Of a DNA stretch of 64,000 nt, positions 3,093-58,207 are shown piece by piece. Origin of the DNA: Hellea sp. (lineage in GTDB: Bacteria; Pseudomonadota; Alphaproteobacteria; Caulobacterales; Maricaulaceae); assembly GCA_020628425.1 (NCBI GenBank), contig JAHDEZ010000009.1, positions 1 to 64,000 on the forward strand, read 5' to 3'. A program made the translations under genes and the position numbers. The notes beneath the pieces are model-generated. The model made no database searches. It was not told the DNA's origin and worked only from the letters and a program-made list of their open reading frames with translations. Position 1 is the first letter of the stretch. The number at the start of each line of letters is the position of its first letter.

Positions 3093-3108
3093 CCTATTTT
3101 TGCAAACC

Positions 3109-3888
3109 CTAATCCAAATCCAGAGTCGAGATTTTGCCCTTGGAGACTTTCCAGAGGACCTGCGTGTCGTCATTGCCGGTTGAGATATAAAACTCTTTAT
3201 CCCACATGAGATTGGCGAATACGTGATGTTCTTCGGGATGATTTGACACGATATGGGTTGTCATCAGTGCGACGGAATTTTCCTCAAACGGTAAGGCATA
3301 ACAGCCTTTGCTAAATGCGTGCGTGCCGAGAATCTCGGAGCCTTCGGCGTTAATATCGAAGCGGTAATGTCGCCCCAATACGACCAGGTCAGGTTCTTTG
3401 GTGGCGGCAAAGAGATAGCCGTAATAGCCGCCGCCCTCTTTTTCCACGACAACAGAATTATAGGGCGTGTAGTCCATACAGGCTTCAAATTCCTGACTGA
3501 GCATAAGCGAGCGGGCTCGCCATAGACCTAGCTCCTCTTCATCCAGCGCGCGGTCAACGGCTTTGGCTTTTTTGATATCGCGCCTTTTAGACTCGACTTC
3601 AAAGAGGGCGCGCGGATTGTCCGTATCCTTGGAGAAAAACACGGTTTTATAGCGTCGTCGGCCATCGCGATAGCTGATCCAGCCGCCCAGCGTGTCCGCG
3701 TCAAAATCCGAATTGTCCCCGAGAAAGACCAAGAGCTCATCGGTCGCGACCCAGGCGGCGATATCCTGATTATAGATTTCCTGACCCAGTTCTTCGGCCT
3801 GGTCGATCTTGTCATCCAGATCATCGGCAGCTGCGAGGCCTGTACTGCTCCACAAAAGCGCGGCTGATAATAGAAGTGTTCTGAACAT
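3109..3888 (-). CDS. Exported hypothetical protein
   Basis: 259 residues from the ATG at 3888, chosen because GGGGAGAGA lies just upstream and a classic signal peptide follows at once (FRTLLLSAALLWSS, cleavage near AAA-DD). An upstream in-frame start at 3954 would place 22 unlikely residues before the signal. The mature protein is acidic with many aromatic residues and two cysteines in its second half. It probably acts in the periplasm. No family is recognised. Confidence 0.65.
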   Translation of the reverse strand: MFRTLLLSAALLWSSTGLAAADDLDDKIDQAEELGQEIYNQDIAAWVATDELLVFLGDNSDFDADTLGGWISYRDGRRRYKTVFFSKDTDNPRALFEVESKRRDIKKAKAVDRALDEEELGLWRARSLMLSQEFEACMDYTPYNSVVVEKEGGGYYGYLFAATKEPDLVVLGRHYRFDINAEGSEILGTHAFSKGCYALPFEENSVALMTTHIVSNHPEEHHVFANLMWDKEFYISTGNDDTQVLWKVSKGKISTLDLD

Positions 3889-3984
3889 AAGTCTCTCCCC
3901 ACAATTATTGTAATAGTGTAATATAATCCTGACTGAGAGGCAATAGGGGCTCACCCCATCTCCCTAGACGTACACAAGCTAGAT

Positions 3985-4848
3985 TTAGGTGCAGGCAATT
4001 ACGAGATTGACGACGACGAAATTTGTTCCTGAAATTCTTTTGACATTATCTGTTTGGCCAAACACAAATTCCAACCATTCCAGGTCGAAATCTTCGGATA
4101 TCAAAACCGTTCTCGCTATGTCTATGTCCTTTGAGTTCGCTGGAATTGTTCCGCCGTCTTTGTTCCACTGGCCTATATCTGCTTCGCATTTCGATATTGA
4201 CGTGTTCTCTATGGGCCCGTCATAATTTCTGGGTAATTTGAAACATTGACCCGCCGTGTTCAAAAATGCCTGACCTGTTATATCGAACTGAAAAGACCAT
4301 AAAGTTTCATTGTCGTGCGGGGCTCCATAACGGGCGATTATCAATTTACGATTCACATCTATAACCAGCCGTGCATCTTGATAACCAATGCTGACATCCG
4401 AATGTCGAACTTCTAAAGCCCCTCTCTCAGAACTTATTATCGGAAACCCATCTTCGGAATATCCGTGAAACCCGATTAAGGCATCGTTTCCACAGGGTGA
4501 CGGGAAGACATTTTTGAAAACAATACGCGCATGGGTCCTTTGATTGTTCAGCTCTATGGGCATTTCAAAATCGAGCTGAGCATTGCGATTATCGAATGTT
4601 TTTCCATCTATTATTTGTCGAGATGGCCAGTTTCGGCAGAAACCGATTTCTTCGAAACCGTTCGGGCAATGATTGGGAATGTGGGTATTAAAACAAGGCG
4701 TATTCGCCGCACTATCACAGTTTGGGAGTATGGATATCTCCTCTGAGGCGGTCGCTGGTTTATTCGCCTCAGCCTGGGTCCAGGTCTTTGGGCCTAAATC
4801 CGTGCATGCTGTAAATAGAAGAGTGATTGTTAGAGATAAGTATCGCAT
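3985..4848 (-). CDS. Probable lipoprotein, unknown
   Basis: 287 residues. The N-terminus has a short signal ending in LLFTAC, an acceptable though not perfect lipobox, so it is likely a lipoprotein. About ten further cysteines (for example NCDSAANTPC and HCPNGFEEIGFC) suggest disulfide bonds in the periplasm. No family is recognised. It lies about 100 bases upstream of the exported hypothetical protein on the same strand, and both have cell-envelope features. The sequence here is more AT-rich than its neighbours. Confidence 0.6.
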   Translation of the reverse strand: MRYLSLTITLLFTACTDLGPKTWTQAEANKPATASEEISILPNCDSAANTPCFNTHIPNHCPNGFEEIGFCRNWPSRQIIDGKTFDNRNAQLDFEMPIELNNQRTHARIVFKNVFPSPCGNDALIGFHGYSEDGFPIISSERGALEVRHSDVSIGYQDARLVIDVNRKLIIARYGAPHDNETLWSFQFDITGQAFLNTAGQCFKLPRNYDGPIENTSISKCEADIGQWNKDGGTIPANSKDIDIARTVLISEDFDLEWLEFVFGQTDNVKRISGTNFVVVNLVIACT

Positions 4849-39415: not shown

Positions 39416-41707
39416 ATGGCCGTGAGCAGGGATCCAAATATCGTCACGCGTCCGCCGCGCTTGATGCGGGCTATCCGAAAGGCCATGGCCGGCACTGAAT
39501 CCGTGCAGGAACGTCTGGATGACTTTGTTGATGCCATTACCGAGGCCATGCAGGTTGCAGTGGCTTCGATTTATTTACGCCGCCCCAGTCGCGAGCTGGA
39601 GTTGTCCGCCACACGGGGTCTTAAAAAATCTGCGGTGCACAAGACCCTGATGCAGCCCGGGGAAGGCCTGGTCGGTCATGTGGCGCAAACCGCGCGTCCG
39701 TTAAATCTGGCCGATGCGCCGTCTCACCCGCTGTTTTCCTACCGGCCGGAAACGGGCGAGGAAAAATATTATTCCTTTCTCGGTGTGCCCATATTGCGGG
39801 GTGGCCGCACGCTGGGTGTTCTGGTTGTCCAAAGTGAAGAGCAAAGAAATTTCAACGAAGAAGAGGTCGAAGATCTCCTGACCGTCGCCATGGTACTGGC
39901 TGAAATCATCGTGGATGACGAGCGTATTGGCGGCCAGAAAGGCGCGTTGAAAGGTATAACGCTGGCGCCGACCAAGCCCGAAACCCATGAGGGCAAAGCT
40001 TTCGCGGATGGTCTTGCGGAGGGGATTGCACACTTGCATGTTCCGCCTGTCACGCCTGATAACCTATTGGCGGAAAATATTGCCACCGAAGAGATCAGGC
40101 TTGAAGAGGGCGTGGCGGTCCTGCGGGCGTCGGTCGATGCCATGGTGTCCGGTGAAGCCGCATCTTTGTCGCGCGCCTCTAAGGAAATCTACGAAACCTA
40201 CCGCATGTTCGCCTATGACCGCAAATGGGTGCAACGCCTCCGTGAAGCCGTGCATTCCGGTTTGACGGCTGAAGCGGCCGTTGAGCGGGTCAGAAACGAA
40301 CATCGCGCCCGGCTAATGAAATCGCCTGATCCTTATATGCGGGCGCGTTTGCATGACCTCGAAGATCTGGCCAATCGATTGCTGCGGGCTTTGTCCGGGG
40401 AAATTCTTGGACCAGGCAATAAAGACCTGCCGGACGGGGCGGTCATTTTCGCCCGTGATTTGGGACCTGCGGAACTTCTCGATTATGAACAAGATAAGCT
40501 TGCCGGTATCGTCCTAGAGGAAGGGGCGCATTCGAGTCATACGTCGATTATCTGTCGGGCCATTGGTATCCCATTAATCGGTCGGGCTGAAGGTGTGCTG
40601 GATCGCATCGAAATGGGTGATCAGGTGCTACTCGATGGCGAGGCCGGTGAGATTCACGTCCGGCCGGTACAAAGTCGGATTGACGGTTTCCGTTTACGGG
40701 TCAGTATTCGCGGCGAAAAAGCCAAAGCCTATGAAGCTATTCGGGGTCGTCCAGCTGTCACCAAGGATGGGCGTCATATCGCCTTGCAACTCAATGCCGG
40801 TCTATTGGTTGACCTTCCGCATCTGGACCGTGAAAGCGCGGATGGTATCGGGCTTTTCAGGACAGAATTTCAGTTCATGGTCGCTGAATTTATGCCGCGA
40901 CTGAAAGAACAAACTGAGCTCTATAAAAAGGCGCTGGATGCGGCCGGTCATCGACCTGTCACCTTTCGGACTTTGGATTTGGGAGGCGATAAAATCCTGC
41001 CTTATATGGATCCGCTTCCCGAAGAAAATCCAGCCATAGGTTGGCGCGCCATTCGGATCGGCCTCGATCGACCGGCCTTATTAAGATATCAATGCCGCGC
41101 TCTGATAGCTGCCGGAGCCCATAAACATTTACGTGTCATGTTTCCGATGGTGACGACGGTTGATGAGTTTATCGAAGCGCGAGCGCTGTTTGATATGGAG
41201 GTTAAACGCGCCTTATCGCTTGGAAAAACCCTACCCAAGAAAATCGAAGTGGGCGTTATGCTCGAGACGCCGTCACTGGCGTGGTCGGTCAGAGCCATTT
41301 GTGACCATGCAGATTTTGTGTCAGTCGGCGCCAATGATCTCATGCAGTTTTTCTTCGCAGCGGACCGGGATAATATCCGGGTCGCAGATCGTTATGATCC
41401 GCTCCATCCGGCGTCTCTGTCAATTTTACGCTTTATTGCAGAGGGGTGTAAGAATGCCGGTGTCCCGGTGTCTCTTTGTGGTGAGATGGCGGGCCGTCCA
41501 CTAGAGGCCATTTGCTTGGTGGCCCTTGGGTTTGAAGCTCTATCCATGCCGGTCACTGGTATTGGTCCTGTCAAAGCGGCCATATTGGAGCTCGACGCAG
41601 AAAAGCTCAATCGTTTGATAACACCTCTTATAACCATCGACTCCCGTGTTGCGTCTGTCCGCCAACATGTGCGCGAGTTTTGTATGGAAGAAGGCATTCC
41701 GATTTAG
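39416..41707 (+). CDS. ptsP: Phosphoenolpyruvate-protein phosphotransferase PtsP (EI-Ntr)
   Basis: 763 residues. GAF domain at about 15-165, then enzyme I: PTS N-domain with the phosphorylated His in EEGAHSSHTSIICRA near residue 378, PEP-binding FRTLDLGGDKILPY and GANDLMQFFFAADRDN, and LCGEMAGRP. It starts the nitrogen phosphotransferase cascade (PtsP-NPr-EIIA-Ntr). In many Alphaproteobacteria it lies between lysC and prfA; here the genomic island follows its stop codon and prfA is not in the window. Confidence 0.95.
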   Translation: MAVSRDPNIVTRPPRLMRAIRKAMAGTESVQERLDDFVDAITEAMQVAVASIYLRRPSRELELSATRGLKKSAVHKTLMQPGEGLVGHVAQTARPLNLADAPSHPLFSYRPETGEEKYYSFLGVPILRGGRTLGVLVVQSEEQRNFNEEEVEDLLTVAMVLAEIIVDDERIGGQKGALKGITLAPTKPETHEGKAFADGLAEGIAHLHVPPVTPDNLLAENIATEEIRLEEGVAVLRASVDAMVSGEAASLSRASKEIYETYRMFAYDRKWVQRLREAVHSGLTAEAAVERVRNEHRARLMKSPDPYMRARLHDLEDLANRLLRALSGEILGPGNKDLPDGAVIFARDLGPAELLDYEQDKLAGIVLEEGAHSSHTSIICRAIGIPLIGRAEGVLDRIEMGDQVLLDGEAGEIHVRPVQSRIDGFRLRVSIRGEKAKAYEAIRGRPAVTKDGRHIALQLNAGLLVDLPHLDRESADGIGLFRTEFQFMVAEFMPRLKEQTELYKKALDAAGHRPVTFRTLDLGGDKILPYMDPLPEENPAIGWRAIRIGLDRPALLRYQCRALIAAGAHKHLRVMFPMVTTVDEFIEARALFDMEVKRALSLGKTLPKKIEVGVMLETPSLAWSVRAICDHADFVSVGANDLMQFFFAADRDNIRVADRYDPLHPASLSILRFIAEGCKNAGVPVSLCGEMAGRPLEAICLVALGFEALSMPVTGIGPVKAAILELDAEKLNRLITPLITIDSRVASVRQHVREFCMEEGIPI

Positions 41708-41715: not shown

Positions 41716-41739
41716 CGATGGAGAGACTGGAACTCTCAC
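41716..41739. mobile_element. Left attachment site (copy of tRNA-Leu 3' end)
   Basis: A 24-bp copy of the tRNA-Leu 3' part at 55846-55869, in the same orientation, with one mismatch (G at 41729 for C at 55859). It lies 9 bases after ptsP and marks the distal end of the island. A further partial copy, TGGTGCGATGGAG, is at 41801-41813. Confidence 0.75.
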
Positions 41740-41876
41740 GACCCCGCCGCAGGCGCGGTCCTCGGGTTACGCCCGTCATTATTCGAAAATAATAGAGTTA
41801 TGGTGCGATGGAGGGCATCGTACTTATCAGTTAATTTATTGAGTTACTTATGTAAAATAAACTTTCAATGAATTTT

Positions 41877-41897
41877 GGCCCCCAATTCGGCCCCCAA
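41877..41897. promoter_or_regulatory. Putative integrase arm site, left end
   Basis: Two GGCCCCCAA units 3 bases apart (12-base period). The same double unit occurs twice at the right end (55667-55687 and 55709-55729), and I saw no other copy in the window. Repeats restricted to the two island ends are typical of recombinase arm-type binding sites. Confidence 0.6.
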
Positions 41898-41919
41898 AGG
41901 CAAATTTGAACCTAGTGAT

Positions 41920-43173
41920 TTAATCAAATAAGTCTTCAATTACCTCATTATAGTGCGGGAAATCTGCGTCCAAAAACTTCTTACAACTCTTTATAATTTG
42001 CGGCAGCAATGCTTCGGCTTCTGTACCGGCGTTCTCAGCATCTGTAACCTGCTTAGATTTTAAAACAACAGTTGCAGATAAATGTTTCCATTTCGTGTTA
42101 GCTGTCGCGGTCCGTCGTCCGATTTTCAATTTTGGATTTTTCAAGACACTTTGATAAATTGCTTCTCTTGTATCTTGATCACCAGGGCCGATCACGAATG
42201 AAATCCTGAACTGATTTTTCCCCCATTGCATTAGCTCAATCAAAAAGACACGACCTGAAGTCGTCCATTCTCCATCCCCTGTCAGCAATGGCTGATAATT
42301 ATCCCAATCTTTAATCGCAAATCTCAAGATTGTGCGCGTACTATCATCTGTTACGATCTGATATCCGGTATGGTCTGAAAGCTCTTTCGCTATCTGCCCA
42401 TGTTTACTACCAAGCATGTCAAGAATTTCGCCGTTTAGGTCTGGGGAATAATTATAAAGAGTTTCAAGGGCCTCTCTATGTTGAGCCCAAATCTTTCGAG
42501 CCAACACCTCAAGTTCATTGTTTCGCAAAATATGCCTCCTCAGCATTTTTTCATAGGATTTGAAAGAGTCTACACTTGGTCCGTCAAAACCCCGATAGTC
42601 GATGACTTTTGAAAACCGGGTGATCAGGTCCTCTAAACTCATGGGCTGCCAGATTTCTGAGTTCTTTTCGCTTGGCGGCGTACCGTCCACGGTTAAAAAA
42701 ACAAATTCTCTATCCCATTTATCGACAGAGTATTCGTAGTCTATGATTTCTTTATATCTCGAGAGTTGATTGCTGTGCTCAACAGAATCGACCTTATTCT
42801 CGATTGCTATAACAAGCCCTTTACCGTTCGCGTTTTCTATTTCGATAAGTATGTCAATATTCTTCCATTCTCGAACAACTCTCAGGTTTGACAAATCCAA
42901 GAAGTGGAAATCTAACTTGGATATGTTTCCAGCCACTGCACCTTCGGCAATCAAGTAAAGCAATTCTTTGAGCAACAAATCTTCAAACTCATGAGGACGG
43001 TTCGGATCGACTATGTAAGCCAAAAAATGAGAATGTCTGATTTCCTGTCGGACCATGCCGGTGGCTTCAAACGGGCAATATCGATTCACGTAGGACTCCA
43101 AAGCCCGAAATTCTTCCGACGCCAAAATCAAGGATTCAAGTTTTGCTGTCGTATCCAGAGAAGCTTGTTCCAT
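41920..43173 (-). CDS. PD-(D/E)XK nuclease family protein
   Basis: 417 residues. The nuclease core is near residues 45-160: HSHFLAYIVDPNRPHEFEDLLLKEL, then NIDILIEIENANG and VIAIENKVDSVEHSNQLSRYKEII. The order D...ExK with the QLxxY helix is the pattern of the PD-(D/E)XK_4 family. The C-terminal half is of unknown fold. A GGAGAGG site precedes the ATG. It starts 15 bases after the membrane/coiled-coil gene, so it is the last gene of the hsd operon. The sequence is AT-rich relative to hsdMSR. Probably a DNA nuclease with a defence role; this is inference from context. Confidence 0.72.
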   Translation of the reverse strand: MEQASLDTTAKLESLILASEEFRALESYVNRYCPFEATGMVRQEIRHSHFLAYIVDPNRPHEFEDLLLKELLYLIAEGAVAGNISKLDFHFLDLSNLRVVREWKNIDILIEIENANGKGLVIAIENKVDSVEHSNQLSRYKEIIDYEYSVDKWDREFVFLTVDGTPPSEKNSEIWQPMSLEDLITRFSKVIDYRGFDGPSVDSFKSYEKMLRRHILRNNELEVLARKIWAQHREALETLYNYSPDLNGEILDMLGSKHGQIAKELSDHTGYQIVTDDSTRTILRFAIKDWDNYQPLLTGDGEWTTSGRVFLIELMQWGKNQFRISFVIGPGDQDTREAIYQSVLKNPKLKIGRRTATANTKWKHLSATVVLKSKQVTDAENAGTEAEALLPQIIKSCKKFLDADFPHYNEVIEDLFD

Positions 43174-43188
43174 TACTCACCTCTCCGA

Positions 43189-43563
43189 CTATCTCTTGCT
43201 TCTTACTTTGGTTTGCTTTTTCAATTGTTCAATTTCTAACTTTAACTTTTGTATCTCAAGCTCAAACTGTTGTTGCGCACGTTTATCCTGCCGCGAACTA
43301 ATTTTTAGCGCAAGAAGCCCAGTAATTATCGCAAAGATACCAATTACCGTATCTAAACCAAATCGCAGGCGTCGTTCAAAACGTTCATTTAGGAGAGTCT
43401 TAATATCATCATTTTTTTTCCAGCAATCAGGTTCCGAAATCGGACAATCTATTATGCTAATTTCTGAAACGTATGAAAACTGTAAAATGAACACTATTCC
43501 CAACACAATAAAAATCACGCCCACATAGAATAAAACATTTCTCCATTCCACTTTATTACCCAT
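43189..43563 (-). CDS. Two-helix membrane protein with C-terminal coiled coil
   Basis: 124 residues from the ATG at 43563, which overlaps the hsdR stop by 8 bases (GGGAGATGGGGTTT upstream). Membrane helices at about 10-30 and 72-90 flank a loop with two cysteines (IDCPISEPDCW). The end is a Gln/Glu/Lys-rich coiled coil (QQQFELEIQKLKLEIEQLKKQ) in the cytoplasm. No family is recognised. It is cotranscribed between hsdR and the PD-(D/E)XK gene. Confidence 0.65.
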   Translation of the reverse strand: MGNKVEWRNVLFYVGVIFIVLGIVFILQFSYVSEISIIDCPISEPDCWKKNDDIKTLLNERFERRLRFGLDTVIGIFAIITGLLALKISSRQDKRAQQQFELEIQKLKLEIEQLKKQTKVRSKR

Positions 43564-46500
43564 AAACCCCATCTCCCAAAATAAACCCTTCCCGGCTTTG
43601 CACATAGGCAAAGATTGAATCCGTCAGGCCGTCCAGCTCCTCTTCCGGATAGAAATCAATCGGCAAGCCCGTCGCCTCATCATAGAGCGCATCATAGATT
43701 TTCTGGCGCAGGCCGTCCCGTGTCGCCTCTTTGGCGAAGAGGTCCTGGGTCGCCTCCATTTGGCTTTTGATGGATTGTAGAAGCTCGGTCGCCACGGATT
43801 TAATCTTGCGGATGTCTTTCTGTTCCAGGTCGGGCTTCCGCAAAATATCGAATATAGCTTTTTCCGGCTTGGACAGCCCTTCGCGGGTATGTTCGCGCTC
43901 CGCTTCTTCCATATCCGCCATCAGACGCGTCAGGGCCTCAAATGTGGCCTCAATGGTCTTGCGGTCCTTTTCCTTGTTATAGTCGGCAATGATCTCATTA
44001 AAACGTTCCTGAAAATCAGAATGGAGCGGGTTCTCCATGATGAGCCGAGCGAGCCTTTGCTCCATCGCTTCTTTCAGGTTCTGTACGTCGGTGTTCTTAT
44101 TAGGCCGCTTGGCAAATTCCTTGCGCAAGAGCTCAAAATCAATGCGGGAAATATCAAAGACTTTCTCCCCATCATCTTCACCCGTGCGGACCTCCACCGC
44201 CTCATGAACGATGCGCTGGAGCTCATTCATGATACCAGAAATATCCGCCTGCTTTCGGTCTTCATCCAGCGACTTGTAAATATAATTGATGGCCTGATAA
44301 TCCTGCCGATATTGCTTTACGCCTTCAATGGTCAGGGCCGCTTTATATTTGCGGAAGACGGTCCGCGCGCTCAGCTCAAAACGCTTGCGGGTTTCATCAT
44401 TCTCATTGATGAGGTTTTTCACCTGCGCCAAGAGCTCAAGCTTTTTAAACCCTTCCGCCGTATGGAGCGCCGACAGGTCAAATTCCTTTTCCTTGAGCTG
44501 TTCACGGACAATGGCGAAGGCCTCGGCCAGTTCGCCTAAGAGCTCCGCATCGGGCCGGACAGGATTAGTTTCCTCGCCGTCCGGATCGCCTGTTCCCGGC
44601 ACGCCCGCAAAGGTCGCCAACGCCTTGCGCAGGTTCTTCAGGATATTTCCATAATCCACGATGAGGCCATTTTCCTTGCCCGCATGGACACGGTTGGCGC
44701 GGGCGATGGCCTGCATGAGCGTATGGGCCTTGAGGGGCTTGTCCAAATAAAGCGTGGCAAGCGACGGCACATCAAAGCCCGTGAGCCACATGGCGCAGAC
44801 AAAGACCACGCGAAACGGATGGCTCTCTTTCTTGAAGGCCGTTTCCATATCGGCCCGCTTGCCATCTTCCATAACAAAGCCGTCGCGCATGAGCTGGCGA
44901 TGGGGCATGATGTCGACGCCGATTTTGCGAAACTTCTCCACCTCGCCTTGCTCGTCGGATACCACGACCGCCATTTCCGTCTCCACCATCCAAGCGGTCT
45001 GGGCGGTAAGCTCGGCGCGGCGTTCGGGATCGGTTTCCGTTTCCAGTTCCGCACGCAAAACTTCAAGACGCTCAGCCCAGGCCTCTTGCACAAAGCCATG
45101 CATGCGAACAGTCGTCGGCTTGTCCAGCGCCACAAACATGGCTTTGCCGCTTTGCCAATTGGTGGCGTAATGCTCGGCGAAATCCACCGCGATGGCGCGC
45201 AGGCGTTTCTCTGCCGTCCGGATGTGATATTCTCGGCGCAAATCCCGCTCCAGACGGGCAGAAACATCCATATCGACGATTTCCGCATTTTCGATGGCCT
45301 CGGCCAGCTTGGCGTTCAGATCGTCATCGACAATGTCCAGCTTCTCGCCGCGCGCATCGTAAAAGAGCGGCACCGTCGCCCCGTCACCCACCGCACGCTT
45401 AAAGCCATAAGTGGAGACATAGCGGCCAAAGACTTTGCGCGTGGTCTCGTCATCATCCATGAGCGGCGTGCCTGTAAAGCCGATGAAACTGGCATTCGGG
45501 AGCGCGTCGCGCATATTCAGCGCCAGCGTCCCGTATTGCGTGCGGTGGGCCTCATCGGTCATGACGATGATATTGGAGCGGTCGGAATAGAACTCGCCCT
45601 CTTCGATTTCCTGATTGAACTTCTGGATCATGCCAAAGACATATTTCTTTTGAAGCCCCAGAAGCTCTTTCAGCTCTGCCCCGCTCCCCGCGCGGCAAGG
45701 GTCCTTGTCATGATTGGCCAAACCAACGCCCGCAAAAGTCTTGTAAATCTGATCATCCAGATCGGTCCGGTCGGTCATAATCAAAAAGGTGAAATCCCCG
45801 CCGAGCTTGCGATGGACCTTCTGCGCATAGAGCGCCATGGAGTAGGATTTTCCAGAGCCTTGCGTATGCCAGAAAACGCCCAACTTGCGTTCTTTATTGT
45901 CAATGTCCTGAGTCGAGGCGATGGCCAGATTAACGCCGAGGAATTGGTGATTACGCGCCACGATTTTGGCCGTGCGGCTCCCGCTTTCATCAAACAGGAT
46001 GAAGTTCTCAAACATGTCGAGGAAATTGGCCTTGTCACACAGGCCCAGAAATAAGCTTTTCCCAGGCAGACGCTCTTCGCCCGTTTCTTTTTCCGACAGG
46101 CGTTTCCACTGTTTAAAATGCTCATATTTGGCCGACAAAGAGCCGAGCTTGGCATCATTGCCATTGGACAGAACGACAAAAGCGTTGAAATCAAACAGGC
46201 GTGGAATTGTGTCTTTATAGTCGAGGAAATTATCCTCATAGGCATAGCGCAAATCTTTGTCCGGACGTTTGCACTCAACAAACAAAAGCGGCAGGCCATT
46301 AACAAAACCGATGACATCAGGCCGCCTGCGATGGACGCCGCTATCGACCCAGAGCTCCCGCACGCAGAGAAATCGATTGTTTTCCGGCGTTTTGAAATCA
46401 AAGACTTTCAGCCGCGCCGTTTTACGCTCGCCGTCTTGTTTATACCGAACGCTCACCCCATCGCGGAGGAGCGCGTATTTTTCCTGATTGGTTTGAAGGG

Positions 46501-46759
46501 GGGATTGCGCGCCAAAGACATCCGTTATCTGCCGGATAGCATCATTATAGGCGGTGGACGGCAGGCCGGGATTAAACCGCTCAAGCGCCCGGCGCAGATA
46601 ACGGGTCAGGACGACTTCACGCTCAGTTTCTCGTCCAAAAGTTCCATCGGGACCTAAATTTTCTTGATTGAAAGCAAAGGCTGACTCCCAGCCGAGCCTC
46701 TTTTCCAGAAGGTCGGCAATGGTCTGTTGGACCAGCCCGTCTTCATCATAACCGCTCAA
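43556..46759 (-). CDS. hsdR: Type I restriction enzyme R subunit
   Basis: 1067 residues, standard length. Nuclease core near residues 155-200: RRRPDVIGFVNGLPLLFVECKRP (D...ExK). Helicase motif I is HTQGSGKSYSMALYA near 300 and the DEAD box is TDEAHRTQYG near 405. Motif III is GFTGTPL, and motif VI lies in QAIARANRVH. The C-terminal helical part links it to the methylase. It translocates and cuts DNA unmethylated at HsdS sites. The start overlaps the hsdS stop by 4 bases. Confidence 0.95.
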   Translation of the reverse strand: MSGYDEDGLVQQTIADLLEKRLGWESAFAFNQENLGPDGTFGRETEREVVLTRYLRRALERFNPGLPSTAYNDAIRQITDVFGAQSPLQTNQEKYALLRDGVSVRYKQDGERKTARLKVFDFKTPENNRFLCVRELWVDSGVHRRRPDVIGFVNGLPLLFVECKRPDKDLRYAYEDNFLDYKDTIPRLFDFNAFVVLSNGNDAKLGSLSAKYEHFKQWKRLSEKETGEERLPGKSLFLGLCDKANFLDMFENFILFDESGSRTAKIVARNHQFLGVNLAIASTQDIDNKERKLGVFWHTQGSGKSYSMALYAQKVHRKLGGDFTFLIMTDRTDLDDQIYKTFAGVGLANHDKDPCRAGSGAELKELLGLQKKYVFGMIQKFNQEIEEGEFYSDRSNIIVMTDEAHRTQYGTLALNMRDALPNASFIGFTGTPLMDDDETTRKVFGRYVSTYGFKRAVGDGATVPLFYDARGEKLDIVDDDLNAKLAEAIENAEIVDMDVSARLERDLRREYHIRTAEKRLRAIAVDFAEHYATNWQSGKAMFVALDKPTTVRMHGFVQEAWAERLEVLRAELETETDPERRAELTAQTAWMVETEMAVVVSDEQGEVEKFRKIGVDIMPHRQLMRDGFVMEDGKRADMETAFKKESHPFRVVFVCAMWLTGFDVPSLATLYLDKPLKAHTLMQAIARANRVHAGKENGLIVDYGNILKNLRKALATFAGVPGTGDPDGEETNPVRPDAELLGELAEAFAIVREQLKEKEFDLSALHTAEGFKKLELLAQVKNLINENDETRKRFELSARTVFRKYKAALTIEGVKQYRQDYQAINYIYKSLDEDRKQADISGIMNELQRIVHEAVEVRTGEDDGEKVFDISRIDFELLRKEFAKRPNKNTDVQNLKEAMEQRLARLIMENPLHSDFQERFNEIIADYNKEKDRKTIEATFEALTRLMADMEEAEREHTREGLSKPEKAIFDILRKPDLEQKDIRKIKSVATELLQSIKSQMEATQDLFAKEATRDGLRQKIYDALYDEATGLPIDFYPEEELDGLTDSIFAYVQSREGFILGDGVYG

Positions 46760-47910
46760 GCAGCAACCTCCAACCGCCCATCCATCAGGCGCGGCAAAAG
46801 CAGGTCACGGGCTTCGGCGAGTTTTTTATTGAAAAGCCGCAGAGTTTTTATTTGTTCAAAAATCTGACTCGCAAACAAAGAGAACTCACGATTCAAATCA
46901 CTTGTCGGAATGAGTATCTCGAGGGATTTTAAAAATTTGAAATGCCTTGCATAAAAATAATTAGATAGGTCTAGCTCTTTCAGCGAAAAATATAATAACT
47001 CATTAGATAATCTCTCATCCTTTGAACAACAAACTTGAGTTCCATCGGCTCCGCGAGCGAAGGGAAAATTGATATACTTCAATACTCTAGTGTGATCTCC
47101 AAAAATCACCACTGGAAGAATTTCTTCATAAACCGCATCGTCAGCATTCGTATATCCGCCGATAAAGTCTTGGCTTTGGTCAACACAAGGGAATTTGCCT
47201 TCAAGGAGATAATCAGCTTTTTTTATTTTTGGTCGAGATTTGACTTTGGACAGTATTTCACCGACTTTCCTTAGTTTCCACCCCTCCGGGATGCCATCGA
47301 CAATCTTTGTCGTCTCATGGCCCGGGAAACGCAGATGCACAAACCATTCCCGATAAAGCAGGCGCGCGGACTCTTCCAAAAGCGCAATCCGCCGACGGTT
47401 ATTTTCAATCAGGTCGTCATAGGCCGATAGGGTGTCAGCAATTTTTTTTTGAACGGGCTTTTCAGGCGTTTTAACCTCTATGCTTGAAAAGGTAGTCTTG
47501 TTGATTATCGGTTGCGCGGCACCCCCGCTTAATCCAATTGAGCGTATCCTCGGTCGGCAATAATTCATCAAGTAATATACAAACAAGGGGTCATGCTGTT
47601 CGTTTGGAACTATTGAATTAATTTGTTGGTTAGTTAGGCAGTCTTCTTTCGCTATTCCCGATTTCCCGATGGTGTTTCCAATACATGTGACAAACGTTGT
47701 TCCCTCAGGAACAAATTGGTTTTTGTGTTTTGTCTTTGCTAATTGTGTGACTGTTGAGTGTGTGCTTTGAACATAATAACTCATCCAGTCCAAATCCGTC
47801 GGAGTGACAAATTGAAAAGGCGCGCCGTAAAATTCCGGGTTTTTTGTCGAAGGTGTTTTACCTGTTACAACTTTTCCGAGTTCGGAAATTTTCTTAGGCC
47901 GCCAAACCAT
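46756..47910 (-). CDS. hsdS: Type I restriction-modification specificity subunit
   Basis: 384 residues. Two target-recognition domains, residues about 1-150 and 205-340, are separated by conserved helices PVQKKIADTLSAYDDLIENN...LLYREWFVHLRFPGHE and end in LNREFSLFASQIFEQIKTLRL...LAEARDLLLPRLMDG. The middle of each TRD is AT-rich and variable, as usual. It sets the DNA recognition sequence, which cannot be read from the protein by eye. It overlaps hsdM and hsdR by 1 and 4 bases. Confidence 0.93.
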   Translation of the reverse strand: MVWRPKKISELGKVVTGKTPSTKNPEFYGAPFQFVTPTDLDWMSYYVQSTHSTVTQLAKTKHKNQFVPEGTTFVTCIGNTIGKSGIAKEDCLTNQQINSIVPNEQHDPLFVYYLMNYCRPRIRSIGLSGGAAQPIINKTTFSSIEVKTPEKPVQKKIADTLSAYDDLIENNRRRIALLEESARLLYREWFVHLRFPGHETTKIVDGIPEGWKLRKVGEILSKVKSRPKIKKADYLLEGKFPCVDQSQDFIGGYTNADDAVYEEILPVVIFGDHTRVLKYINFPFARGADGTQVCCSKDERLSNELLYFSLKELDLSNYFYARHFKFLKSLEILIPTSDLNREFSLFASQIFEQIKTLRLFNKKLAEARDLLLPRLMDGRLEVAA

Positions 47911-49901
47911 TAGGCTAGGTTCTCAAAATTTGATTGAATTAAAGCCGCCAAACTCACTGCGTCCGAGTTCAATTTGGTGAGCTCGAATTGAATATTTTGC
48001 ATAACCTCATCAAAATCAAAATCCAGGTCTTCCTCTTCCGGGGCTACGCCGACATATCGGCCCGGTGTCAGGCTCCAGTCATTCTCCTCGATCTCGGCAT
48101 GGTCGACCAATTTGACTAGGCCTTCCACATCGACCAGCTTACCCTCTGGAAAGCGCGACAAGAGCCAGTCGGATTGACGGATAAGATAAGCCAGACGCTT
48201 CATTTCGGCGTTGAATTTATCTTTTAGTGCCGCCAGCTTTTTCAAATCGACATCCACACCTGCTTCGGGTGCGATGGCGTCGGCCTTTTCGCTGACCTCC
48301 TTGAACAGCCCATTGCCCATTTTGATAATCGATGGGACCTGCTCGGACAGCTTGATCATGACCGTATGATTGGCCAACGCCGTTTCAATCTCGACAATCG
48401 GGAAAGACATAACTTTCGAAATCGCGTCGCATTTGTCGGTAAATGCACCGCAAATTTCGCCAAACGCCGCGCCCTTGTGTTTCGTGATTGGAATATATTT
48501 TGCGGGAAAAGTCAGCGCGTTCACATATTCCGCTAGGGTGTTGTAAAGCTCGGTCTCGTAGTGAATGAGCGCGTTTTTCTGATAGTTTTCTATTAAGCTC
48601 AAAAATCGCTCCGTCTGGCCACGATAGAGCCAAACAACTGCGTTTATATTCTGCATTTGCTCTGGGGAGAAATCATAGACTTTACGACTTAGCACCCGAT
48701 AAATCTGTCGGGCGTCGATCATCAGGACTTTGTCCTGCATGTTGTCTGGTTTGTCCTTATCAAAAAACCACAATTCACATGGTACTGAGCGCGTATAGAA
48801 GAAGTTACCGCGAATGGCGATCATGATGTCCACATCACCGGATTTGACCAATTGCTCCCTGACAATCATCTCACTTTTACCAGCAGATGAGGCTTGGGAG
48901 GACATAACAATCCCGGCGCGACCTTTCTCCGACAGATAGGCATGAAAAAAGCTCATCCAGACATAATTGCCATTAGAGACTTTGCCTTTTTTGTTCACCC
49001 CCGGCAGGCCAAAGGGCAGGCGCGGATCGCCTTTGATTTTTTCGGCGTCGATTTCGTCCACGTTAAAGGGCGGATTGGCCATGACATAATCGGCTTGCCC
49101 TAAAAGCTTATGCGGGTCTTCGTAATAGGAAATGGCCTTTTGGATGTCGCCCTCCAGCCCGTGAACGGCCAAGTTCATTTTCGCCAGACGTAGCGTGGTC
49201 GGATTTTTCTCCATGCCGTAAAAGGTCACCCGTTCGGACGGATTGGCTTTCATGTTCTCGATGAAATGGGCGGACTGAACGAACATGCCGCCAGAGCCGC
49301 AAGCCGGGTCCAATATCTTGCCGGAGCTGGGCTCTATGACATTGACGATGGTCTGGACGATGGAAATGGGCGTGAAGAACTCACCATTATCATGGGCTTT
49401 CTGATCGGCGAATTTGGTCAGGAAATATTCATAGATTCGACCAAAGACATCGCCGTCGGCCTTTTTGAGCTCCGGGTCGTCAAAGATGCGCAGGATTTGC
49501 GACAGATCGTCATTTTCCAGCTCGTTATATTCGGTCTTGGGCAGGACGCCGGAGAGCGTGTCGTAATCGGCTTCGATGCTTTCCATCGCCGCGACGATGG
49601 CCGCGCCTTTATCCTCGCCTTCGGGCAGGGCGACCAGATGGTCAAACTGGGCTTCGGGCTTGAGGAAGATGGCTGAGCGGGCGGAGAAGTCTTCTTTGGT
49701 CAGAGCGCGCGTTTTCCCGCCCCGTGAGGGTAAATTGGCCTCAATATCGACCTTGACCTTCAGAAAGCGCGAATAGGCGTGACGGAGGAATATAAGCCCC
49801 ATAATGGGCATGAAATATTCATTGCTGGCAAAATTGGAATTGGCCCGCAAGAGATCAGCCGACTCCCAGAGACGTTTCTCCAGCTTTCCGAAATGTTGCA
49901 T
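47910..49901 (-). CDS. hsdM: Type I restriction-modification DNA methylase
   Basis: 663 residues. N-terminal HsdM domain, then the N6-adenine methylase: motif I is KILDPACGSGGMFVQSAHF near residue 197 and motif IV is ANPPFNVDEID near 275. The C-terminal 200 residues are longer than in E. coli HsdM (529). It modifies adenine at the HsdS target to protect self DNA. It is the first gene of the five-gene minus-strand operon. Confidence 0.95.
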   Translation of the reverse strand: MQHFGKLEKRLWESADLLRANSNFASNEYFMPIMGLIFLRHAYSRFLKVKVDIEANLPSRGGKTRALTKEDFSARSAIFLKPEAQFDHLVALPEGEDKGAAIVAAMESIEADYDTLSGVLPKTEYNELENDDLSQILRIFDDPELKKADGDVFGRIYEYFLTKFADQKAHDNGEFFTPISIVQTIVNVIEPSSGKILDPACGSGGMFVQSAHFIENMKANPSERVTFYGMEKNPTTLRLAKMNLAVHGLEGDIQKAISYYEDPHKLLGQADYVMANPPFNVDEIDAEKIKGDPRLPFGLPGVNKKGKVSNGNYVWMSFFHAYLSEKGRAGIVMSSQASSAGKSEMIVREQLVKSGDVDIMIAIRGNFFYTRSVPCELWFFDKDKPDNMQDKVLMIDARQIYRVLSRKVYDFSPEQMQNINAVVWLYRGQTERFLSLIENYQKNALIHYETELYNTLAEYVNALTFPAKYIPITKHKGAAFGEICGAFTDKCDAISKVMSFPIVEIETALANHTVMIKLSEQVPSIIKMGNGLFKEVSEKADAIAPEAGVDVDLKKLAALKDKFNAEMKRLAYLIRQSDWLLSRFPEGKLVDVEGLVKLVDHAEIEENDWSLTPGRYVGVAPEEEDLDFDFDEVMQNIQFELTKLNSDAVSLAALIQSNFENLA

Positions 49902-49966: not shown

Positions 49967-50671
49967 TCAAAGTAAAGGCTCTATGACCTCTACAATGAGT
50001 CCGCCTAAAACTTCGTCCAGAAAGATTTTGTCGTCAACACCAGAAATATCGGTATTTTTCATTAAACCAAGGCCTTCGTATCTTTTAAGGCGCGAATACT
50101 TGAAATAATTTATGTAGTGCATCCTACTTGTATGATCACCAGGCTTAAGAGTTCTAATGGGCCCATTGGAATGAAGATCGAACACCCATGACATTCCTCG
50201 CTGATAGATCGTTGAACGAACAGCGGCTGGTAAAAACTTGAGGTCTGAGACCGGTAGAGCGCTGATTAAGTGAATGATTTCGAAATACCGTTCTCTTACT
50301 CTTTTATCCTTACAGGCGCTGGTTAATGTGCGCGCGATCATTCGAGCCTTAATTTCTGTTTCTGCATTCTCAATTTTTGAAAATAACTCCTGATTGAAAG
50401 CGTCCTCGCCAAATTCTTCTTTTAGGTTCTTAATTTTCTGTAGCTCTAATGCTGGAGTCATTCCTTCAAAGTCATCTAGGATTTGGCTCATCGCTGCATC
50501 AAACTTCTTTTGGAAATGCCTGTCGCGGACTGACATGGCTCCCAGTCCAGCCGTTAAGGCGCTGGTCCAAATCGGCAACCCGCCTGTAATCATGTCTAAT
50601 GCAGTCGCAACAAGTTGCGGGCCGCCTGATTCGATAGCTGCGTCGATGCGCTTTTTGTTTTCGTCAGTCAT
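49967..50671 (-). CDS. Uncharacterised island protein
   Basis: 234 residues. Near the N-terminus (about 17-50) is a hydrophobic stretch LVATALDMITGGLPIWTSALTAGLGAMS, possibly one membrane-active helix or hairpin. The middle is helical and charged (FEGMTPALELQKIKNLKEEF, NAETEIKARMIARTLTSA). No family is recognised. It starts 160 bases from the V8-like protease gene in the opposite direction, and lies 65 bases upstream of hsdM on the same strand. It may be a partner or target of the protease; no evidence beyond position. Confidence 0.6.
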   Translation of the reverse strand: MTDENKKRIDAAIESGGPQLVATALDMITGGLPIWTSALTAGLGAMSVRDRHFQKKFDAAMSQILDDFEGMTPALELQKIKNLKEEFGEDAFNQELFSKIENAETEIKARMIARTLTSACKDKRVRERYFEIIHLISALPVSDLKFLPAAVRSTIYQRGMSWVFDLHSNGPIRTLKPGDHTSRMHYINYFKYSRLKRYEGLGLMKNTDISGVDDKIFLDEVLGGLIVEVIEPLL

Positions 50672-50831
50672 GCGTCATTCTCGATAAAATAGTGATTGCG
50701 ACCACCGAGTTGGCGATGCTGCACGACATTTACAAGGTATCGCGAAAAGAGTTTTGTAACTGCCGTCACATTTTCCACCTTCACAAATTGTTAATAGTGC
50801 TCAAGGCGTTAACTTTTTGAGGAGATTTTCA

Positions 50832-51692
50832 ATGCCATGGAAAAAAAAAGACGAGACTTTATCTGAGCCACCAATTTTTACTGAAAGCACCGCGATATTA
50901 AATACGACGAGCGGCAGTGCAGGAAATCTAGGCAATCAATCGGGTTCCAGGATTCGCCAAATTCACTTTGGCGAAGATAACATAAATATTGAAACAGTGT
51001 TCGGAGAGGATGACAGGTACGAAGTTCTCGATACCTCAGTCTACCCTTTCCGCATGATATGTAGTTTGGATTTATATTTTTCTGAAAACGGTTCTTTATC
51101 ACGTGGCACCGGTGCATTTATCGCACCAAATATGTTGCTGAGTTGCGCTCACAATTGTTTCAATTATCGGACACAAAAACTCGTGCACTCAATCGAGGTG
51201 TTTCCCGGACGGGCGGGAGACTCAACTCCTTTTAATTCAACGTGGGTAACAAGAGTTATGTATCCAGAGGAATACGAATTAAATGGATTGTCAGAAAATG
51301 ACATAGCCATTTTCGAACTGGCCGATCCGATTGGAGACGACGTAGGCTTCTTTAGTATGGCAAGTGCTGGTGACGCGATGATACGTGCCATGGAAGTAAA
51401 TCTCACTGGTTACTCCGGTGACCGAGATCAAACTGCAAGGACAATGTACACTAATTCCAGCTCAGTCTGGGATCTTTCTCCGACAGCTATTTATTATCAA
51501 GCTGACACCTTTGGGGGTAATTCAGGAGGGCCCGTTTATTCGTACCAAGATGGAAATATCGATGGAATACCGACCGTATTTGGAGTTCACATTAACGGAG
51601 ACGCGGCCAATACACCAGGACCGTCCAATGGCGCGCGAAGAATTGATCAGGACATGCTTATTCAGCTTAAAGACTGGGCTGGTATAAAGTAG
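50832..51692 (+). CDS. V8-like (S1B) serine protease, no signal peptide
   Basis: 286 residues from the ATG at 50832, preceded by AGGAG. The fold matches Glu-specific V8-like proteases: FGEDDRYEVLDTSVYPFRMICSL, then GTGAFIAPNMLLSCAHNCF with the catalytic His. The catalytic Asp is in SENDIAIFEL and the Ser in FGGNSGGPVY. So the triad looks intact. The N-terminal 40 residues are polar (KKKDETLSEPP) and lack a signal peptide, unlike secreted V8 enzymes, so it should stay in the cytoplasm. It is divergent from the uncharacterised gene. Confidence 0.8.
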   Translation: MPWKKKDETLSEPPIFTESTAILNTTSGSAGNLGNQSGSRIRQIHFGEDNINIETVFGEDDRYEVLDTSVYPFRMICSLDLYFSENGSLSRGTGAFIAPNMLLSCAHNCFNYRTQKLVHSIEVFPGRAGDSTPFNSTWVTRVMYPEEYELNGLSENDIAIFELADPIGDDVGFFSMASAGDAMIRAMEVNLTGYSGDRDQTARTMYTNSSSVWDLSPTAIYYQADTFGGNSGGPVYSYQDGNIDGIPTVFGVHINGDAANTPGPSNGARRIDQDMLIQLKDWAGIK

Positions 51693-51720: not shown

Positions 51721-52719
51721 CTATATGCCTTGACGAATAATCCGCTCCATTTCATGCAAAGATAGGGTCCCATAACTCGTTAGCGTCGTATGCGGGTTTG
51801 TATGGCCCAGGCTTTGGCTCCAGGCGCGAAACTCGACGATGGACAGGTCCCGGTCATACATTTCCTTGACCAGCATGTCGCGGAAGCGGTGGGGCGTGTA
51901 AGCGGGCAGGCCCGCGTTGGTGAAAGCATCGGCGAAAATCTGGCGCAGGGGTGATGTGGATTTCCAATGCGCTCGCGACAGGCCTACGGCTTTGAATCCC
52001 TCGTCCAGGCTGGATGTCATGGCGGTGGACGGGATGAGCGGATGGCCTGGCGCAAAGAGCAGCTCTTTTTCCTGATATTCAATCCACTCCAGCAAAATGG
52101 CCTCCCATTCATCGCATACGGGCAGAACGAGAGAATTGATACGTTTGCCGAATTTGGTTTGAACCTCTTTCGGGTTCTGGACGATCAGCATGCGGTCGCG
52201 GTGGAAATGTTTTCGCTTCAATGAAATCAGCGCGCCGCCCCGGATACCGGTCAGACCGCAAAGGACCACCGCAACCCGATTGCGCAAATCAATTGGCGTT
52301 TCAGACGGCATTAGGGCGACCACCGCCTTCACCATGGCCAGGCTTGGGAAATCTTTCTCTGCCGGGGCGTTGGCGGCCCGTGTGTCGCGTTCCGACAGGC
52401 TAAGATAGTCCACGTCTTCAGCGGAAACTCTGGATTTGTAACCGGGCTGACGGGAGAGCCATTTCAGGAACCGTTTCAGCCGATTGACTTCTGACAATAT
52501 GGTCGCCTTGGCGAGGTCCTGTTGAGCGAGGTGGGATTTATAGGCGATGGCCTGTTTCTGATTGAAGGTCTTGAAGCAGGCAAACCGGGTGAAGCCTTCA
52601 AACCGGAGAATGGATTTCTCATGGGTTCGGATGGTGGTTTCAGACTTGCGATCAGCATGTTCGAGGAAAAGATAATAGTCTTTTTTGATACGTTCGTTTT
52701 GGGCGTTTTTCTGGGTCAT
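51721..52719 (-). CDS. Tyrosine recombinase (second integrase)
   Basis: 332 residues. N-terminal SAM-like domain at about 1-110. The catalytic core has the first Arg in LTGIRGGAL near 160, HRFRDMLVKE (HxxR) near 277, and SLGHTNPHTTLTSYG with the His and the nucleophilic Tyr near 305-318. All key residues are present. It forms a module with the two small genes upstream on the same strand (zinc/HTH protein and AlpA). Confidence 0.88.
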   Translation of the reverse strand: MTQKNAQNERIKKDYYLFLEHADRKSETTIRTHEKSILRFEGFTRFACFKTFNQKQAIAYKSHLAQQDLAKATILSEVNRLKRFLKWLSRQPGYKSRVSAEDVDYLSLSERDTRAANAPAEKDFPSLAMVKAVVALMPSETPIDLRNRVAVVLCGLTGIRGGALISLKRKHFHRDRMLIVQNPKEVQTKFGKRINSLVLPVCDEWEAILLEWIEYQEKELLFAPGHPLIPSTAMTSSLDEGFKAVGLSRAHWKSTSPLRQIFADAFTNAGLPAYTPHRFRDMLVKEMYDRDLSIVEFRAWSQSLGHTNPHTTLTSYGTLSLHEMERIIRQGI

Positions 52720-54479: not shown

Positions 54480-55664
54480 TCAGTTTCTAAATTCAGTCAA
54501 ATTTTCCGCCCACCAATCTGCCATTTTTACCCGCTCTTCCCAATGTTGACCACGGTCATAGGCGCGCCTTATGGCGTTGGGCTCGGCGTGAGCCAGCGCA
54601 CGTTCTATGGCGTCAGGATTCCATTTTCCGCTTTCATTAGCGATGGTGGAAAATGTGGCCCGAAAGCCGTGAGAGGTCACTTTGTCGGGGCCGTAACCCA
54701 TCCGGCGCAAGGCCTGATTAAACGTGTTTTCGCTGATGGGCTTTCTGGATGACATATTAGACGGGAATAATAGCTCGCCCCATCCAGTCAGCCCTTTTAA
54801 CTCGTTTAACAGGTCAATAGCTGCTGACGATAAGGGCACATAATGCGGTCGTCGCCCCTTCATCCGTTTTGCAGGGATATGCCAGACTGCCTTCTCAAAA
54901 TCGAACTCTTCCCACCGCGCCTTTCTCAATTCACCTGGTCTTACGGCTAACAAGACCAATAATGTCAGCCCCAGACGTGTCTCCGGTTGGCCCTGATATT
55001 GATCCAGGACCCGCAGAAACGCCCCAAGCTCCTCTTTATCCGTAATCGCCGCCATTTGCTTATGGGTTGGCTTTATCAAGGCCCCTTTGAGCGCATAGGT
55101 CGGGTCTGTATCAATAAGCCCAGACGCGATGGCGAAGCGAAAAACCGCCCCTATGGTCGAGCGCATTCGACTGGCGGTTTCATAATGGCCCAGCTTTTCC
55201 CGCTTTTTCAAACATTGAAGAATGATTGGGGTAGTCACTTCAGTAATGGGCATTTGACCAAAATCATCAAACGCCATCCCTAAAACCCAGTCTATTTTCT
55301 TGAGTGTTGTCTCTGCCCGCCCTTCTTTAGTGATCTTTTCAACATACAGCCCAGCCACATTTTTGAAGCTATTGGCCTGCTCCATCCGTTTCGTAGCTTT
55401 CTCCGTCTTCTTCTTAATAGACGGGTCAATGCCTGCCGCCACTTGCTGACGGGCCTCATCGCGCAGAAAGCGGGCTCTTTTAAGGGGAACATCTGGATAT
55501 TTGCCAAATGACAGCTTCCGCTCTTTCCCGTTTAGTCTGTATTTAAACTTCCAATGCTTCGACCCGGTCGGGCTGATTTGCAAATAAAGGCTATCATAAT
55601 CGGAAACCTTAAAGGCCTTTGCCCGAGGCTTGAGGGCCTTGATTTTAGCATCCGTCAGGGGCAT
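54480..55664 (-). CDS. P4-type tyrosine integrase
   Basis: 394 residues from the ATG at 55664; an upstream start would translate the repeat sites. N-terminal DUF4102 arm-binding domain (LTDAKIKALKPRAKAFKVSDYDSLYLQI, GKYPDVPLKRAR), then the catalytic core: RPGELRKARW, KRMKGRRPHYVPLS, SHGFRATFSTIA and LAHAEPNAIRRAYDR. All catalytic residues R-K-H-R-H-Y are present. It should have inserted the island at tRNA-Leu. A repeat site lies 3-23 bases upstream of the ATG and may regulate it. Confidence 0.92.
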   Translation of the reverse strand: MPLTDAKIKALKPRAKAFKVSDYDSLYLQISPTGSKHWKFKYRLNGKERKLSFGKYPDVPLKRARFLRDEARQQVAAGIDPSIKKKTEKATKRMEQANSFKNVAGLYVEKITKEGRAETTLKKIDWVLGMAFDDFGQMPITEVTTPIILQCLKKREKLGHYETASRMRSTIGAVFRFAIASGLIDTDPTYALKGALIKPTHKQMAAITDKEELGAFLRVLDQYQGQPETRLGLTLLVLLAVRPGELRKARWEEFDFEKAVWHIPAKRMKGRRPHYVPLSSAAIDLLNELKGLTGWGELLFPSNMSSRKPISENTFNQALRRMGYGPDKVTSHGFRATFSTIANESGKWNPDAIERALAHAEPNAIRRAYDRGQHWEERVKMADWWAENLTEFRN

Positions 55665-55666
55665 GA

Positions 55667-55729
55667 GGCCCCCAATTTGGCCCCCAACGCTGGGGACCAA
55701 TTACGATCAGCCCCCAAATCGGCCCCCAA
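55667..55729. promoter_or_regulatory. Two putative integrase arm sites, right end
   Basis: Two double-unit sites, 55667-55687 and 55709-55729, each made of two GGCCCCCAA-type units 3 bases apart. They match the site at the left end. The proximal one sits between the integrase ATG and its promoter region. Confidence 0.6.
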
Positions 55730-55839: not shown

Positions 55840-55925
55840 TGGTGCCGATGGAGAGACTCGAACTCTCACTCCCAATGGGAACTGGATTTTGAATCCAGCG
55901 CGTCTACCGGTTCCGCCACATCGGC
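55840..55925 (-). tRNA. tRNA-Leu (anticodon CAA)
   Basis: 86 bases including an encoded CCA. Acceptor stem GCCGATG/CATCGGC, anticodon stem CTGGA/TCCAG with loop TTCAAAA (anticodon CAA, reads UUG), long variable arm TCCC/GGGA, T arm GAGAG-TTCGAGT-CTCTC. Its 3' end faces the island and is repeated at the island's far end. Confidence 0.95.
55846..55869. mobile_element. Right attachment site inside tRNA-Leu
   Basis: The 24-bp stretch of the tRNA 3' half (T arm and acceptor) that is repeated at 41716-41739 with one mismatch. It keeps the tRNA complete. Confidence 0.75.
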
Positions 55926-57856: not shown

Positions 57857-57934
57857 AGCCACACATCCAATTAAATCTGAGTCATAGATTTACCTGCAAT
57901 AATGATTGCCATCGCCTTTGTGAGGCGCTAGAGG

Positions 57935-58110
57935 CTTGCCCGTTGGTGCTCCGGCCTTGGTCGGGGTGAAAAGGGAATGGAGTGAAAATCTCCGACTGTC
58001 CCCGCAGCTGTAACCGGATAGCGGTTCGACTATCGCCACTGAGACAATCGGGAAGGCGTCGAACAGCGTAAAGCCGGAAGTCAGAAGACCTGCCAACGCC
58101 GTCGCCAGCG
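57935..58110 (+). promoter_or_regulatory. Cobalamin (AdoCbl) riboswitch
   Basis: Conserved core elements appear in order: GTGAAAAGGGAA, then GACTGTCCCCGCAGCTGTAA (B12 core, 57995-58014 region), CCACTGAGA, GGGAAGG, and AAGCCGGAAGTCAGAAGACCTGCC near the end (about 58072-58094; the last 24 bases named here are split by the family as AGCC and AGAAGACCTGCC). It lies upstream of the BtuB-like gene and should shut the operon off when cobalamin is plentiful. Confidence 0.93.
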
Positions 58111-58207
58111 CATAGGGCGGGAGTTCCCATATGCATGGATAGCCGATTGGCCATTTCCAATGACGACGATTGATTTTGCGGGTGCGTCCCGCTGTTTTGG
58201 AGTCGTT

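Follow-up and report, generated by a model that had tools for sequence, protein, structure and literature searches.

Why should a type I restriction-modification (RM) operon end in two genes that are not standard partners of restriction? The question is raised by a stretch of 64,000 nucleotides from Hellea sp. (GenBank assembly GCA_020628425.1, contig JAHDEZ010000009.1, positions 1 to 64,000; hereafter the window), in which hsdM, hsdS and hsdR are followed by a small gene and a PD-(D/E)XK nuclease gene. A first-pass annotation suggested that the last two could be an add-on defence system that needs the RM complex. We propose, with a probability of roughly 0.6, that the operon lies on an integrative island of about 14 kilobases (kb), that the slot behind hsdR holds changing defence cargo, represented here by a nuclease of the PDC-S26/PDDEXK_4 family and a small membrane protein, and that the nuclease is autonomous. 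The observation behind the annotation was correct, and its interpretation is partly supported.

The operon and its two terminal genes

Read from the sequence, the locus is a putative mobile island with a normal RM operon and two extra genes at its end, one for a recognisable candidate phage-defence nuclease and one for a predicted small membrane protein without any relative in our searches. All five genes lie on the minus strand:

47910-49901, minus strand: hsdM, type I adenine methyltransferase, 663 amino acids (Pfam N6_Mtase, E 4.5e-76, and HsdM_N, E 1.6e-13; PADLOC MTase_I, E 2.6e-250)
46756-47910, minus strand: hsdS, type I specificity subunit, 384 amino acids (Pfam Methylase_S, E 5.5e-27)
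43556-46759, minus strand: hsdR, type I restriction subunit, 1067 amino acids (Pfam HSDR_N, E 3.5e-43, and SWI2_SNF2, E 2.7e-70; NCBIfam TIGR00348, above cut-off)
43189-43563, minus strand: small gene, 124 amino acids, two predicted membrane helices, no relative found (sequence features, single-sequence model)
41920-43173, minus strand: PD-(D/E)XK nuclease, 417 amino acids (Pfam PF14281, E 9.3e-22; PADLOC PDC-S26, E 2e-113)

The three hsd genes run in one direction and each belongs to the right family in Pfam, PADLOC and NCBIfam, which points to an apparently intact type I RM operon. The single compact gene run of the first-pass annotation is exact to the base: overlaps of 1, 4 and 8 bases join hsdM to hsdS, hsdS to hsdR and hsdR to the small gene, and 15 bases separate the small gene from the nuclease. 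Purine-rich stretches resembling ribosome sites, read by eye, precede both terminal genes. The term operon refers here to gene spacing only, because a sequence scan for promoter-like sites (12 found against 11.7 expected, that is, at chance) and terminator-like sites (20 against 11.4) decides no transcript ends. The AT-richness ascribed to the pair is real, with GC contents of 35.5% in the small gene and 41.8% in the nuclease against 50.4% for the window (hsdR, 53.7%), but it does not set the two genes apart because hsdS is low as well (42.6%). The interval first given for the pair, 41716-43611, covers both genes but opens on an attachment-site-like repeat (41716-41739) that belongs to neither. 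At the other end, a 234-residue protein encoded on the same strand (49967-50671) ends 65 bases upstream of hsdM and may represent the first gene of the operon; it has no family match in Pfam, PADLOC, NCBIfam and other family scans.

That the last gene encodes a PD-(D/E)XK protein is borne out by both of its family matches. Residues 35-179 match PDDEXK_4 (PF14281) with 78.3 bits against a cut-off of 22.3, and residues 3-414 match positions 3-394 of the 400 in the PADLOC PDC-S26 profile, in effect its full length. When the window nuclease is aligned with relatives from 44 of 60 genome loci (16 partial, badly framed or very distant ones were omitted), E44, H47, E102, D107, E125, K127, Q136 and Y140 are invariant in all 45 rows. 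D107, E125 and K127, together with E44 and Q136, are assigned to the D...E-x-K nuclease motif, and this putative active-site motif is intact. A structural model built from the alignment (mean predicted local distance difference test score, pLDDT, 92) divides into a nuclease domain at about residues 31-198 and a second domain at about 245-417. Foldseek returned no match for the model in the PDB at E ≤0.001, and the sequence profile found no relative among solved structures (three matches, all E >0.5). In structure comparisons, residues 31-198 scored Z of about 5-7.3 against nicking and restriction endonucleases, EndoMS, Can2, LmuA and Shedu, and residues 245-417 scored about 5-6 against YbjN-type and secretion-chaperone folds, among other entries; these middling scores agree with a predicted PD-(D/E)XK fold and no more.

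We take the "S" in PDC-S26 to denote a one-gene candidate, and presume that the family stems from the 2024 preprint of Payne et al. on embedded defence genes, a work that both PMC12255303 and PMC13092281 cite. PDC itself stands for phage defence candidate (PMC11514479). Within the literature collection searched, queries for PDC-S26, PF14281 and PDDEXK_4 together with phage found no paper naming them. PD-(D/E)XK domains occur in 13 of 31 further validated systems of the DefensePredictor study (PMC13092281).

The small gene starts at an ATG at 43563 (an alternative TTG at 43611 would yield 140 amino acids) and is likely real because its 123 open codons would arise by chance with a probability of only about 3e-5 at its own composition. 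Its frame ranks best of six on island codon usage, yet scores below zero (-0.15 per codon, against 0.01 for the nuclease), and codon usage argues weakly for a coding gene. The product was first described as a two-helix coiled coil; we found a weak heptad pattern (6 of 11 in the best of seven registers) and a predicted membrane hairpin with a charged helical tail instead. Hydrophobic stretches of 19 residues begin at residues 9 and 68, and a single-sequence model (mean pLDDT 78) features a short loop with two cysteines followed by a long charged C-terminal helix.

The slot behind hsdR and the reach of the nuclease family

What occupies the same position in related operons? Close relatives of hsdR were present in 5 of 384 other class genomes (E ≤1e-100) and in 12 of 397 other phylum-sample genomes (E ≤1e-200). 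Together with seven plasmid loci, drawn from 231 plasmid records with a match, these 17 genome loci gave 24 related hsd loci; the plasmids held no near DNA match of the operon. Genes behind hsdR were listed as open reading frames (ORFs) of at least 70-90 amino acids in genome loci and as annotated genes only in plasmids. A same-strand gene follows hsdR within 150 bases in nine of the 23 loci with a readable 3' side (L087, L088, L089, L095, L098, L116, L118, L119 and L121; a doubtful 115-residue ORF in L112 was not counted). Among 30 cargo proteins scanned with PADLOC, at least one match was obtained, in or behind the operon, at 13 of the 24 loci:

L087: GajA-GajB directly behind hsdR (HsdR 63% to that of the window)
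L088: UzuA directly behind hsdR (HsdR 60% to that of the window)
L095: PtuA-PtuB behind hsdR
L121: GajA-type protein behind hsdR, PDC-S13 inside the operon
L118: partial effector match at the start of a 2052-residue protein behind hsdR
L092: PsyrT-PsyrA inside the operon
L094: AbiD inside the operon
L096: AbiJ inside the operon
L090: GmrSD-type protein inside the operon
L114: SoFic inside the operon
L119: PDC-S02 and PDC-S13 inside the operon
L122: CBASS-type cyclase and membrane effector inside the operon
L123: Ppl inside the operon

L087 and L088 are the loci closest to the window. Gabija, UzuA and Septu function without an RM partner. With the PDC-S26 match in the window and other defence genes in the sister operons, the first-pass view of the two terminal genes as likely defence cargo holds up. 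As a separate observation, a gene between hsdS and hsdR in L089 (7557-8807) has a weak diadenylate-cyclase (DAC) match under the Pfam cut-off and no PADLOC match.

The nuclease family itself reaches well beyond such operons. Relatives were found at 60 loci in a species-level genome collection, in one further genome among 384 others in the class sample, in 22 plasmid records (15 of them fetched) and in one phage record. Viral contigs yielded nothing in one pattern search and 35 pattern matches without any relative in another. The 60 genome loci, the 15 plasmid loci and L002 make up 76 nuclease loci, in which proximity to hsd genes was assessed with HsdM, HsdS and HsdR queries from several lineages. 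A type I HsdR lies within reach in five (L027, L034, L035, L040 and L044), all of them genome loci; the count is four of 47 for loci with at least 5 kb on both sides and zero of 15 for plasmids. Three others (L045, L047 and L049) hold an HsdM-like methyltransferase alone near the nuclease, and the nearest relative of the window nuclease, L058 (44%), has no hsd match within its 21 kb. The arrangements differ: hsdM-hsdS-hsdR-YgjP-like peptidase-nuclease in L040, the nuclease between hsdS and hsdR in L027, and the nuclease on the strand opposite to hsd in L044. On the 45-row nuclease tree the hsd label needs four changes, each of them imposed by well-supported branches. A count as low as this came up in 8 of 500 shuffles, which indicates some clustering of the label, due mainly to three near relatives among cyanobacteria. 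Overall, the family recurs beside type I hsd genes (5 of the 60 genome loci), a point in favour of the first-pass annotation, but it usually occurs without them.

The small gene is a different matter. Relatives were absent from plasmid records and phage records (zero in each), none of 99 pattern matches in viral contigs was a relative, and in 385 genomes of the class and 200 of the order, among them the genome of the window, every match apart from the gene itself was spurious. A search of the ORFs at the 76 other nuclease loci and at the 24 related hsd loci, for which the window served as positive control, also found none. Individual candidates were rejected: the L099 match is antisense to a 197-residue ORF, the L004 match is a 453-residue coiled-coil protein that aligns through its membrane and coiled-coil stretches, and L005 could not be aligned in any meaningful way. 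Matches to DUF308, FtsL, the holin phrog_4237 and others (E 0.002-0.14, under curated cut-offs where such exist) were set aside because they are also typical of membrane and coiled-coil sequence. Within these searches the pairing of small gene and nuclease is unique to the window. The pair as a recurrent unit is not supported, and the outcome that the first-pass annotation had itself named as refuting, a pair found in no other hsd locus, is the one obtained here.

These results bear directly on the rival that survives best, one that we nevertheless consider unlikely: that the two genes act as one system, with the membrane protein serving either as the infection sensor or as a tether that keeps the nuclease where phage DNA enters the cell, as in Kiwa, Zorya and SNIPE. 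In its favour, only 15 bases part the two adjacent genes, the small protein is predicted to have two membrane helices as well as a long helical tail, and DNA-targeting defences localised to the membrane are known (PMC12904381). Against this, no relative of the small protein was found beside any of the 76 other nucleases, at none of which (0 of 76), as at none of the related hsd loci (0 of 24), the small gene occurs. Because its sequence may have diverged past recognition, the architecture was sought too: among the 70 nuclease loci that offer 600 bases or more upstream (six of the 76 had less), not one carries, on the same strand and no further than 1 kb upstream of the nuclease, an ORF of 60-300 amino acids predicted to have exactly two membrane helices. 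Two loci have upstream membrane ORFs with more helices, three in L066 and five in L055. A related scenario, in which the type I operon captured a stand-alone PDC-S26 nuclease that thereby acquired a new membrane partner, so that the small protein would be the sensor or anchor of an undescribed two-gene, membrane-linked system, strikes us as distinctly unlikely.

The island and the standing of the proposal

Where did the operon and its cargo come from? Four features frame the answer:

41716-41739, no strand assigned: left attachment-site-like repeat, matching the 3' part of tRNA-Leu at 23 of 24 bases, outside the five genes
51721-52719, minus strand: second, different tyrosine recombinase (family matches)
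54480-55700, minus strand: tyrosine integrase beside the tRNA (Pfam Arm-DNA-bind_3, Phage_int_M and Phage_integrase)
55840-55925, minus strand: tRNA-Leu(CAA), likely right attachment site, with the repeat copy at 55846-55869

Repeats of the GGCCCCCAA type also stand at both island ends (41877-41897, 55667-55687 and 55710-55729). Together, the tRNA-Leu repeat, the end repeats, the adjoining integrase and the second recombinase make it most likely that the operon is carried by an integrative element of about 14.2 kb, inserted in tRNA-Leu(CAA). In a same-genus genome, G938, the flanking ptsP gene and tRNA-Leu(CAA) are about 700 bases apart, an arrangement that fits a site without the island; the support is weak because this is one of seven fetched regions, its tRNA is 79% identical to that of the window, and the sequence past the tRNA does not align to the window.

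Several other features of the surroundings are recorded here. To the inside of the left repeat, 41800-41824 resembles a degenerate tRNA-Leu 3' end (81% over 26 columns, E 0.21), possibly an older insertion or chance. A trypsin-like protease on the plus strand (50817-51692) has weak PADLOC matches to the LmuA and RT-Protease models (E 5e-8 to 4e-5), and a cobalamin riboswitch lies at 57927-58111 (117.6 bits). The ptsP-like gene at 39416-41707 has a second copy, with 87% protein identity, at 2376-4661 of a 5.5-kb contig of the assembly (G000:C65); given this copy and an estimated contamination of 5.4%, the assembly bin may mix two related genomes.

The island also invites a second rival, which we judge very unlikely: that the nuclease is a mobility or selfish nuclease that arrived with the island, the small gene being a functionless orphan. 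Two tyrosine recombinases on the island, relatives in 22 plasmid records, some of them near annotated recombinases or transposases, and the lack of small-gene relatives in our searches fit such an origin; the listing of the family by PADLOC as a defence candidate, the position of some relatives within about 7 kb of genes annotated HamA or Shedu, and its recurrence in hsd loci, with four label changes on the tree, speak against it. Finally, a guard of the RM enzyme, silent with intact HsdMSR and released when a phage anti-restriction protein blocks it, has a precedent in PrrC and EcoprrI (PMC2610378) and could draw on the 8-base overlap of the small gene with hsdR, but is the most improbable reading of all, since HsdR lies near only 5 of 76 nucleases, those HsdRs are at best about 29-32% identical to that of the window, the L044 nuclease is on the strand opposite to hsd, and sister operons carry other kinds of cargo.

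An independent nuclease is the simplest account because the family usually occurs without hsd genes and without the small protein, and because the slot hosts systems that work alone. We thus return to the proposal that the nuclease and the small gene are best read as interchangeable defence cargo, probably independent of restriction. The nuclease would act on its own as a further line of defence, cutting phage DNA without HsdMSR or, alternatively, the cell's own DNA as an abortive response, and its place in the operon would give it only the expression and mobility of the RM genes. The small protein, the least certain part, may tune or anchor the nuclease or may be a separate one-gene cargo. 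Dependence on the RM complex, as first suggested, finds no support in these data: few nuclease loci have HsdR nearby, and the slot holds systems that work without an RM partner.

Several points weigh against this proposal. None of the 24 related hsd loci holds the window nuclease, and the slot argument is therefore one by analogy; the 30 cargo proteins were picked by eye; and 11 of the 24 loci gave no PADLOC match among the scanned cargo (L089, L093, L098, L112, L113 and L116) or had nothing scanned (L091, L097, L115, L117 and L120). The PDC-S26 family is itself a candidate for defence. The set of 60 genome loci, collected by scanning for two peptide patterns, is not a full census, and the hsd proximity counts measure occurrence rather than enrichment. 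In addition, PMC11411939 reports that with tgvAB on its own, protection against several phages was 10- to 100-fold weaker than in the strain used for comparison, and because of this some interplay between TgvAB and its operon is possible.

Comparison with known systems

If the proposal holds, the locus adds a case to the idea of type I operons as carriers of exchangeable defence modules. In one hsd lineage the slot behind hsdR holds GajA-GajB, UzuA, PtuA-PtuB or the candidate nuclease in different genomes, which makes the slot a simple place to look for new defence genes and to rank them. As a candidate partner of the nuclease, the orphan membrane gene is the part that could still surprise.

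Relative to PDC-S26, the window nuclease is a full-length match, but it is preceded by a small membrane gene and sits behind hsdR. In PADLOC, which includes Kiwa and Zorya models, neither protein matched those systems: all matches of the nuclease are to PDC-S26, and the small protein has none. SNIPE combines DUF4041 and a membrane-bound nuclease in a single protein; DUF4041 is not among the Pfam matches of either protein, and no SNIPE model was searched. Kiwa, Zorya and SNIPE (PMC12904381) resemble the window in joining a membrane part with a DNA-acting part, but the window membrane gene is not conserved with its nuclease. PrrC-EcoprrI (PMC2610378) is an RM-dependent guard in which EcoprrI silences PrrC. 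It likewise links a second effector to a type I system; PrrC, however, is a tRNA anticodon nuclease with ABC ATPase motifs, and a comparable silencing in the window would be hypothetical. Neither the nuclease nor the small protein matches the PrrC family in Pfam or PADLOC.

Closer in layout are defence genes carried within type I operons. DarTG2 is one instance (PMC12255303). TgvAB comprises two genes embedded in a type I RM operon of Vibrio cholerae VPI-2 (PMC11411939); as in the window, two extra genes are carried by a type I operon on an island, but TgvAB is GmrSD-like and needs both genes, whereas the window nuclease is an unrelated PD-(D/E)XK protein at the operon end. Closest of all are GajA-GajB in L087 and UzuA in L088. 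Their cargo is unrelated, with nothing in either locus that matches the nuclease profile or the small protein, but they share with the window the same hsd lineage and the same slot behind hsdR.

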